Part shown: positions 450 to 45,115 of the stretch, piece after piece
Numbering within the stretch: position 1 is the first letter of the stretch
How the letters are laid out: each line of letters opens with the position of its first letter
Assembly (NCBI GenBank): GCA_001543005.1
Contig: LFLB01000002.1
Location: 62,001 to 126,000 of the forward strand
Reading direction: 5' to 3'
DNA: 64,000 nt
DNA from: Candidatus Spongiihabitans thiooxidans
Lineage (GTDB): Bacteria; Pseudomonadota; Gammaproteobacteria; Arenicellales; Poriferihabitantaceae
Made by a program: the position numbers and the translations under genes
Notes under the pieces: generated by a model
What the model was told of the DNA's origin: nothing
The model's input: the letters and a program-made list of their open reading frames with translations, nothing else
Databases searched by the model: none

Positions 450-773
450 ATGTTAATTCTTACTCGCCGTATAGGCGAATCGGTTTACATCGGAGACGAT
501 GTTAGATTAACAGTTTTAGGCGTACGTGGAACCCAGGTTCGAATCGGTATAAATGCGCCCAAAGAGATACCCGTTCATCGAGAGGAGATATACTATCGAA
601 TCAAACATGAACAAGCAGGTGGTCACGGCCAGGATAACGGGCACGATCAGGGTGGTCAATATAATGGTAATCAATCAGATGATGATTCAGATGATTCAGA
701 TGATTCAGATGATTCAGATGATTATGATGATGACCAACCGGATACGGAAGCGGGTGATCCGCACAACGCATAA
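450..773 (+). CDS. csrA: Carbon storage regulator CsrA with acidic C-terminal tail
   Basis: Small homodimeric RNA-binding protein that represses or activates translation by binding GGA motifs in mRNA leaders. Residues 1-~60 are canonical: it opens [18 protein letters not shown] and ends the fold with the [12 protein letters not shown] segment. I start at the ATG at 450, preceded by GGAG at about 437-440; an in-frame upstream ATG at 393 would add 19 unrelated residues. The protein is 107 aa against about 60-65 usual, because of a ~45-residue extension rich in Gly, Asn and Gln, then a run of Asp and Ser encoded by a 9-bp tandem repeat. The tail is in frame and ends at a normal stop, so it looks translated, but its role is unknown. 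Confidence 0.93.
684..719 (+). repeat. 9-bp tandem repeat inside csrA
   Basis: Four perfect copies of GATTCAGAT, each encoding Asp-Ser-Asp, with further degenerate GAT codons on both sides. Because the unit is a multiple of three, copy-number change would lengthen or shorten the acidic tail without a frameshift. Confidence 0.9.
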
Positions 774-4497: not shown

Positions 4498-5334
4498 TTA
4501 CATTGCTCCCAGGGTTTTTGCAAGCTCGGCTGATTTTTTGATGGCATCATTAATGCCGAGGGTGATTGTTTCATCGATACCGTGTTTCTCCATAGTCAAT
4601 AATGCCGCTTCGGTAGTGCCGCCCGGTGAGGTGACCTGACGTCGCAATTCACCGGGTAAATGCTCGCTCTTGCTTGCGAGTTTGGCGGCGCCTAAGGCGG
4701 TTTGTAGCGCCAGCGTTCTCGCTACTGTACCACCTAGCCCGTTCGCCTGCGCCGCATTTATCATTATTTCCATCAGTTTAAAAAAATACGCGGGGCCACT
4801 GCCGGAAATTCCGGTAACCGTATCAATATCGCTTTCGGTGTTGACCCATATCACCTGCCCCACGGCTTGCATAACTTGCGTTGCCGATTGCTTGTGAAAA
4901 CTATTTGCATGTGCATTAGCAAGCAATCCAGAGACGCCACAATTCACCAGTGCGGGGGTGTTGGGCATCGCCCGGACAAAAGGCACTTCCTGTCCAATCC
5001 ATTTCACGATATCACTGATTCTGATTCCGGCTACAATGGATATGATCAAAGGATTATTCTTAACCAGGGTTGTTCGAATCGATTCTACGGCTTGTTTCAA
5101 GACCTGTGGTTTTACCGACAATACAACGATATCTGCCTGGCGGATACATTTTTCGTTGTTTTCGTAAATAGTGATGCTAAATTGCTTTTCCAGTAAATTA
5201 CGTTGCTCTTTTGACGGATCTGAGACAAAAATATTTTTCGATGGCCAGCCAGAGGAAACCAATCCTCCAATAATGCTGCGCGCCATATTTCCTCCCCCAA
5301 TAAATGCGATTCGGTTGTTTGCAGATGGTTTCAT
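4498..5334 (-). CDS. proC: Pyrroline-5-carboxylate reductase
   Basis: Last step of proline synthesis: reduces 1-pyrroline-5-carboxylate with NAD(P)H. The Rossmann motif 'IAFIGGGNMARSIIGGL' is at residues ~8-24 and the C-terminal signature 'LRRQVTSPGGTTEAALLTM' at ~230-248. I begin at the Met of MKPSANN (5334), which gives the normal ~278 aa. The open frame extends 46 codons upstream, but that extension is encoded by a repeated hairpin element found at two other loci (5353-5397), so it is leader rather than protein. Confidence 0.94.
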   Translation of the reverse strand: MKPSANNRIAFIGGGNMARSIIGGLVSSGWPSKNIFVSDPSKEQRNLLEKQFSITIYENNEKCIRQADIVVLSVKPQVLKQAVESIRTTLVKNNPLIISIVAGIRISDIVKWIGQEVPFVRAMPNTPALVNCGVSGLLANAHANSFHKQSATQVMQAVGQVIWVNTESDIDTVTGISGSGPAYFFKLMEIMINAAQANGLGGTVARTLALQTALGAAKLASKSEHLPGELRRQVTSPGGTTEAALLTMEKHGIDETITLGINDAIKKSAELAKTLGAM

Positions 5335-5352
5335 TTTGGATTTCTCTATTAA

Positions 5353-5397
5353 GGAAGTCTTGAATAATGCCATCCTGGCGTTATCAGAGCAAGAACA
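5353..5397 (-). repeat. Hairpin repeat element, copy A (upstream of proC)
   Basis: A 45-bp element read on the minus strand, beginning TGTTCTTGCTCTGATAACG and ending ATTCAAGACTTCC. It differs from copy C (45071-45115) at only about 4 of 45 positions and is very close to copy B (13406-13449). The arms GATAACGCC and GGC-TTATTC can pair. It ends 18 nt before the proC start codon. Confidence 0.85.
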
Positions 5398-5496
5398 CCA
5401 AAAATAACCGAACAGCCAAAATAGCCGGTTTAGATTGTCTGTCGAATTTTGCTCGCACATCCTTGTACTCATAGGGACGGCCCTGAATAATCATGC

Positions 5497-6231
5497 CTAT
5501 ATTGGACGAGGGCCGAAAATCGCAGTCCCTATTCGTATTTGTGTTGCACCTTCCAGAATGGCCGCTTCCATGTCGCCGGTCATGCCCATCGACAGTTGAT
5601 TCAGATTGAAACCCTGTTGGTTGAGTTGTTCAAGTGCCATTCTGCAACGCCTGAAAATTGCGCGCTGTTTTTCAAAATCTGGTTCTATTTCAGGAATAAT
5701 CATCAGTCCGCGGAAATTTAAGTTTCGCATTCCATTGATAGAATCGGCCAACTGCGGAAGTTCATTTAAGCAAACACCGGATTTGGATAATTCCTGTTGT
5801 AAATTGAGTTGAATTAAAACCTTTAATGGGGGTCGGTCGCCTCTGTGTTGATTCAGTTTTTCAGCAACTTTTGTGCTGTGTACGGTGTGAACCCAGTCGA
5901 AACACTCGGCGATTTTTGTGCATTTTCTGCTTTGTATGTGGCCTATGAAATGCCAACAAATGTTATTTTCGACTCCCCTGTTTTCCATAGCCAGGTTTTC
6001 AAGAGCAAGGTTTACCCGGGCAATTTTTTCAACCCCTTCCTGCACATAGTTTTCCGCGAAATCCCGATGCCCCAGCTTAATCAGTTCAACTACTTTTTCA
6101 GCATTGTGGCGCTTGCTCACTGCAATCAATTTTACCGTTGATACTCGACCTTGATATTTGTTCGCGTACTCCGCCACCGCGTCCAGCGTTCGCTGATATC
6201 TTTTAGCCAGAGGCGATTGTTCTACGGGCAT
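5497..6231 (-). CDS. yggS: YggS family PLP homeostasis protein
   Basis: Fold-type III pyridoxal-phosphate protein (PLPBP/YggS/PROSC), a non-enzymatic regulator of free PLP and of amino/keto acid balance. 244 aa. The PLP lysine lies in 'VKLIAVSKRHNAEKV' (~33-47), with 'DFAENYVQEG' (~56-65), 'WHFIGHIQSRK' (~93-103) and the phosphate-binding end 'SMGMTGDMEAAILEGAT..RIGTAIFG'. An unusual Asn/Glu-rich stretch with repeating EN (about residues 73-88) interrupts the usual spacing before WHFIGH. It is first in the leftward yggS-proC-yggT cluster and divergent from argC. Confidence 0.93.
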   Translation of the reverse strand: MPVEQSPLAKRYQRTLDAVAEYANKYQGRVSTVKLIAVSKRHNAEKVVELIKLGHRDFAENYVQEGVEKIARVNLALENLAMENRGVENNICWHFIGHIQSRKCTKIAECFDWVHTVHSTKVAEKLNQHRGDRPPLKVLIQLNLQQELSKSGVCLNELPQLADSINGMRNLNFRGLMIIPEIEPDFEKQRAIFRRCRMALEQLNQQGFNLNQLSMGMTGDMEAAILEGATQIRIGTAIFGPRPI

Positions 6232-13242: not shown

Positions 13243-13405
13243 AATTACCAGGCACAAATGTAGTACATGTCTGGTAGTAAGATGCTCTGGGATAGGGTAT
13301 ATTCGATAATATTAAAGCTGGCGTGATTTGTGTTGTTGATAGTCTTGAAGTTGAGGCGATTATGTCTCGAAAGGAAACGCTGATTAATTCAGTGTTTCAT
13401 TATAG

Positions 13406-13449
13406 TGTTGTTGCTCTGATAACGTCAGGATGGCATTATCAGAGCTTCC
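13406..13449 (+). repeat. Hairpin repeat element, copy B (upstream of glnA)
   Basis: A 44-bp copy of the element also found before proC and rpoE. Here the arms are perfect: GCTCTGATAA at 13413-13422 and its complement TTATCAGAGC at 13436-13445, with a 13-nt middle. It lies 52 nt before the glnA start codon, inside the glnA leader. Confidence 0.87.
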
Positions 13450-13501
13450 TAAATAATTAAATTGCCAGGAGATTTCTGGTATTCGAACCGAGGTTATTTA
13501 T

Positions 13502-44945: not shown

Positions 44946-45070
44946 TTTTGACCATGATAAACCATTATTTTCAGGAAACTTTTGCCGGAGCACGGGTCGT
45001 TTCCCAAGTGAAATATTCGAACAAAATCAAACAGGGAGTCCACCAGGGTGTCCATCAGCGCCATTTTGGA

Positions 45071-45115
45071 TGTTGTTGCTCTGATAACGCCAAGATGGCA
45101 TTATTCATAACTTCC
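45071..45115 (+). repeat. Hairpin repeat element, copy C (upstream of rpoE)
   Basis: 45 bp beginning TGTTGTTGCTCTGATAACGC and ending CATAACTTCC. About 41 of 45 positions match copy A before proC. It ends 23-32 nt before the rpoE start. Here the right arm is partly lost (TTATTCATAA rather than TTATCAGAGC), so the hairpin is weaker than in copy B. Confidence 0.85.

Follow-up and report, generated by a model that had tools for sequence, protein, structure and literature searches.

A short sequence recurs in front of three unrelated genes, proC, glnA and rpoE, within a 64-kb stretch of the Candidatus Spongiihabitans thiooxidans genome (64,000 nucleotides; hereafter the window). What kind of element is it, how did it reach these positions, and does it serve the genes downstream? 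The initial annotation described a hairpin of ~45 bp in three copies and offered two readings, a mobile hairpin that inserts near starts or a cis-acting leader element, with a neutral REP-type repeat (copies at both ends of genes and in both orientations) as the alternative. We followed the element through the window, its genome and other genomes.

Copies in the window and across its genome

The core GCTCTGATAACG occurs with zero mismatches at three window sites, 5379-5390 on the minus strand and 13413-13424 and 45078-45089 on the plus strand, always 5′ of the next gene and codirectional with it; proC, glnA and rpoE were identified by Pfam. The distances to the start codons are 18 nt for proC (start at 5334), 52 nt for glnA and ~34 nt for rpoE (if its start is 45148), bearing out the description of three codirectional leader copies 18-52 nt from starts. 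The site named at proC was correctly placed, but the copy is longer (Table 1) and matches positions 31-152 of a full-length profile, R2, at 5354-5469 (E 2.6e-6). Hairpin formation by all three copies was upheld in part: the glnA copy alone folds as a near-perfect hairpin (RNA fold z -3.3), the rpoE copy is intermediate, and the whole proC element folds no better than shuffled sequence (z 0.24).

Table 1 Features of the element and related genes in the window
Feature	Position	Strand	Basis or remark
Putative decayed full-length IS5-type MITE copy, filling the yggS-proC junction	about 5350..5497	-	Outer limits by inspection of ends
Conserved right end, hairpin H5, proC copy	5353..5397	-	Site named in the initial annotation
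-35-like hexamer TTGCTC, proC copy	5387..5392	-	Pattern match and sigma-70 scoring
-10-like hexamer CATTAT after TGG (extended -10), 17 nt from the -35, proC copy	5364..5369	-	Pattern and sigma-70 scoring
GTACAAGGATGT, H2 hairpin remnant, perfect CsrA SELEX consensus RUACARGGAUGU	5457..5468	-	PMC7652899
proC, likely true start 5334	4498..5334	-	Frame extension to 5472 inside the element
Short glnA copy: left-end-like hairpin GGAAACGCTGATTAATTCAGTGTTTC and right end H5, 10-bp stem	13373..13450	+	
Promoter-like TTGCTC-17-TGGCATTAT at glnA	13411..13439	+	Pattern and sigma-70 scoring
Right-end copy before rpoE; loop GGA changed to AGA	45061..45115	+	
Promoter-like TTGCTC-17-TGGCATTAT at rpoE	45076..45104	+	Pattern and sigma-70 scoring
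csrA (CsrA domain), outside the element; encodes the predicted hairpin-binding protein	450..605	+	PF02599, E 4.4e-24; G000:C16:62450-62605

As had been claimed, the element also prolongs the open frame of proC, which runs on upstream to give 324 aa instead of the 278 aa from the likely start; the 46 extra codons occupy window positions 5335-5472 (minus strand). Comparable extensions through element copies are found at purM and at a gene on contig C32. Automatic start calls may therefore be too long at these three genes.

Three copies is the count for the window but not for its genome (2.69 Mb, 42 contigs), where a profile search yielded 13 (E < 1e-6). The 29-mer TTGCTCTGATAACGNNNNGATGGNATTAT, allowing up to 3 mismatches, had 10 genome matches, against 0 for the reversed-pattern control. 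Profile R2, built without window-genome sequences, recovered 11 window-genome copies at E <= 0.005 and one weakly, so the choice of query does not account for the copy set. Genes downstream include proC, glnA, rpoE, pyrC, a tusA-like gene, purM-purN and rsmI, those outside the window being named by eye from translations. At 11 of the 13 copies the next gene is codirectional; six of these 11 are flanked by divergent genes, which makes their orientation meaningless, and the informative contrast is 5:1. The copy on contig C20 has no codirectional gene close downstream.

Relatives in other genomes

Beyond the window genome, a profile is needed to detect the family. Scans for the exact pattern in viral and genome contigs gave no match, and neither did a plasmid search or a pattern search of other genomes. 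Profile R1, made from window-genome copies only and run against 194 genomes, matched 25 copies in G189, 24 in G129 and 21 in G035 (E down to 3.5e-14), seven related copies in G127 and one copy in each of three further genomes; the 23 other members of the organism's own family had no copy at E <= 1e-4.

These profile matches include full-form copies, with inverted ends GGAASCTCTGAWT, in other gammaproteobacterial families. The 45-bp core of the window is, in the relatives, the right end of a ~150-bp unit (usually 149-153 bp). Terminal inverted repeats read GGAACCTCTGAT... on the left and GGAAGCTCTGAAT... on the right in 34 full-length relatives and are degenerate in the window genome. Exact 4-bp target-site duplications, mostly YTAR (for example TTAA, TTAG, CTAA and CTAG), flank 26 of 48 relative copies, compared with 9.8 after shuffling (p < 1e-4); they are not discernible in the window-genome copies. 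The element is short, non-coding and multicopy, with 13-25 copies per genome and no transposase inside.

A 1,169-bp insertion sequence in G189 (L247) encodes an IS5-type transposase (PF01609, PF05598), and it has ends that match those of the unit and a 4-bp duplication, TAAG. The inverted ends, the target duplications and this matching insertion sequence mark the unit as a MITE, presumably mobilised by IS5-type transposases. The element family is mobile, judging by the target duplications and IS-like ends of the relatives, and the mobile hairpin proposed at the outset is to that extent confirmed by full-length homologues elsewhere. The window genome itself retains an IS5 remnant, a broken gene with the end ATCAGAGGTTCC, which is the sole such IS5-type gene found there. 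A second, different MITE-like unit, which has the ends GGAAACTCTGATTAA...TTAATCAGAGTTTCC and a CTAA duplication and contains a TTTCGCAGGAATGAC palindrome, lies at G000:C35:12880-13000, directly behind a short IS5-type (DUF772) gene.

The same homologues bear on two other origins. That the element is a conserved, non-mobile operator-promoter of one regulon would accord with a palindrome, overlapping a promoter-like site, that precedes metabolic genes in many copies in one genome. We set this reading aside on homology as very improbable, given the target duplications and IS-type ends of homologues in other families, the full-length homology at proC, and the fact that neither 23 family members nor the glnA locus of 47 relatives yielded a clear copy. 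An origin as a REP element mobilised by a RAYT (Y1 transposase) is exceedingly improbable: the element is palindromic and extragenic and the genome encodes a single Y1_Tnp (RAYT-type) protein (G000:C3:24450-24779), but no copy was found beside that gene, and the target duplications and the matching IS5-type insertion sequence argue against such an origin. On the opposite strand, a reversed sigma-54-like GG-N10-GC site was judged weak by eye and set aside.

Gene contexts in three of the other genomes, defined by ORF length alone, do not demonstrate insertion near starts. Copies occur on either side of genes and in either orientation; the next gene is codirectional in 37 of 65 cases, and between codirectional genes the preference for codirectional placement is modest (21:9, p = 0.04); in G035 all orientations are about equally frequent. 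The neutral REP-type alternative suits these genomes better, the window genome less.

Hairpins with CsrA-type loops

The full unit comprises five covarying hairpins (RNA fold z -12 and -9 in two examples). Across 34 copies, 92% of pair cells hold standard pairs, and 92 cells are changed on both sides, versus 33 when shuffled and at most 16 when slid. Two loops, those of H2 and H5, stay constant while their stems vary. H2 reads C-ANGGAN-G in nearly all relative copies (A in 32, G in 33, G in 34 and A in 31 of 34, both N being free) on the stems GGCAC/GTGCC, GGTAC/GTACC and GGCGC/GCGCC. The H5 loop of the relatives is NNGGAT, mostly CAGGAT closed by C-G, on the stems ATTC/GAAT, ATGC/GCAT, ACGC/GCGT, AGTC/GACT and AATC/GATT.

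Known sites of the Csr/Rsm type include the RsmE loop ANGGAN, the CsrA SELEX consensus RUACARGGAUGU and the CsrB repeat CAGGA(U/A/C)G (PMC7652899), and the H5 loop CAGGAUG is the CsrB repeat motif (PMC7652899). The H2 and H5 loops match CsrA/RsmA site types exactly in kind, and CsrA binding is predicted from their sequences. Both present GGA in a loop (ANGGAN or CAGGAUG) in the relatives, and partly so in the window genome. A csrA gene is present in all eight genomes examined. The CsrA-type hairpins appear to be part of the ancestral design of the element.

A mobile CsrA/RsmA-binding leader, in which insertion would add GGA-loop hairpins to the downstream mRNA leader for CsrA to repress or stabilise, draws on the fixed A and GGA of H2 amid covarying stems, on the CsrB-like H5 loop, on the general presence of csrA, on the perfect SELEX consensus at proC (0.03 matches expected by chance in the window) and on sense orientation between codirectional genes (26:10). 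For the window genome we nevertheless consider this reading unlikely. Four of the 12 H5 loops there have a missing or displaced GGA, about the background rate, and H2 is kept in just two right-end copies; the proC leader folds no better than shuffled sequence, and the hairpins would be absent from the mRNA if the element's own promoter were used.

In G127, four tandem copies with a unit of ~124 bp (G127:C1:2569112-2569526) place repeated GGA-loop hairpins between small ORFs. This arrangement resembles a CsrB-style array and, as RNA, would be a multi-GGA array; no GacA box was found near it. Rfam contained no family for the element, the best CsrB/Rsm match being RsmV at 17.6 bits (cut-off 100, E 0.67). 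A separate sub-threshold Rfam match, to Rickettsia sRNA47, lies at L031:329-458 (G000:C3), with 48 bits (cut-off 60, E 3e-9).

Relics with a promoter-like right end, and known systems

Left halves are unrecognisable in the window genome except at proC, at C3:283700 and partly at glnA. Pairwise identity there is 0.41 on the left (0.32 when shuffled) versus 0.76 at the right end, the corresponding values in G189 being 0.81 and 0.86. The right end of most copies reads TTGCTC-17-TGgCATTAT, an extended -10, sigma-70 promoter-like sequence of moderate score; a -35, a -10 and a spacing of 15-19 nt are present in most copies, and activity is predicted. Beyond TTG the -35 match is poor, and 9 of the 12 intact copies have a promoter-like site of higher score within 150 nt. 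TTG is found in 12/12 intact window-genome copies, versus mostly GTG in G189 and G129 (promoter score 7.3 vs 4.6), and could be an ancestral state of the subfamily without need of selection. Promoter positions, noticed before testing, carry 3/132 substitutions versus 23/216 at the other core positions (p = 0.003); the other four genomes have no such difference. Unlike these positions, the GGA loop and stem are not specially conserved in the window genome, where the suggested cis-acting leader element, though possible, is the less supported for it.

Given right ends kept, left halves lost, promoter positions conserved and downstream genes codirectional, we conclude that the window elements are relics of an IS5-type MITE whose surviving right end was probably kept as a promoter. 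We place the probability of this reading at roughly 55%, the promoter case resting on small numbers of copies. An IS5-type transposase would have moved the MITE, which in the window genome would have ceased moving and then decayed, while selection retained copies whose right end gave the downstream gene an outward-facing sigma-70 promoter, TTGCTC-17-TGgCATTAT. RNA polymerase would start ~7 nt past CATTAT, which at most loci would give leaders of roughly 20-100 nt; for proC, transcription continuing from yggS would still include the two CsrA-like sites in the leader of that gene.

Neutral MITE debris, persisting by chance and without function in the window genome, is a rather doubtful alternative. 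The even orientations in G035 speak for it, as does the comparison of 11/13 codirectional genes with 37/65 in the other genomes, which reaches just p = 0.07; against it stand the retention of right ends beside decayed left halves and the greater conservation of promoter positions than of their neighbours. A left-half-only copy (H1 and H2, AAGGATGTGCGAGC) at G000:C12:32951-32983 is antisense to the downstream gene, so the promoter pattern does not hold for all relics; the window genome was surveyed by searches and stretches, and such copies may be undercounted.

A wider reading, which we advance tentatively, is that a transposon spread patchily through gammaproteobacterial families with two covarying CsrA/RsmA-binding hairpins, which may act as mobile CsrA decoys or control neighbouring genes; arrays like that of G127 might be CsrB-like sponges, and the promoters would have been domesticated in the window genome. 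A transposon distributing CsrA sites would be the more novel part, and it draws on the relatives rather than on the window. The open-access literature yielded neither a description of a MITE with CsrA-type hairpins nor a connection between MITEs and CsrA: MITE papers and a MITE review left CsrA unmentioned, CsrA papers left MITEs unmentioned, and the element's sequence strings were not found. If true, the reading would join two subjects hitherto studied separately, small transposons that bring ready-made control sequences with them and the Csr/Rsm network. If CsrA binds, a mobile element would have seeded sites of a global post-transcriptional regulator in several families, a testable route of regulon growth. 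In the window genome, some dozen relics with one end retained and the other lost form a natural series.

Among known systems, CsrB/RsmZ-type RNAs and CsrA-target leaders (PMC7652899) share the GGA hairpins with ANGGAN or CAGGAUG loops, several of which follow one another in the four tandem copies of G127; unlike CsrB/RsmZ-type RNAs, the element is transposable, repeated genome-wide and without an Rfam CsrB/Rsm match above threshold. IS5-type insertion sequences (PF05598 and PF01609) have, in G189, ends GGARCCTCTGAWCAATT that are nearly those of the MITE and the same 4-bp length of duplication, whereas the MITE lacks a transposase and its interior is made up of consecutive hairpins. "Promoter propagation" by putative mobile promoters is a known concept; such promoters too consist of one promoter-sized sequence repeated before unrelated genes, but for the present element the transposon of origin is identified. 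Promoter-bearing MITEs are established, as Correia elements of Neisseria, MITEAba12 and QMITE1 (PMC10969869, PMC6382973, PMC5896051), and these resemble the present family in being short and non-autonomous, with inverted ends, a target duplication and an outward sigma-70-type promoter near genes. They differ in ends and size, and CsrA-type hairpins are unmentioned in those three papers; MITEAba12 duplicates 9 bp, compared with 4 bp in the present family.
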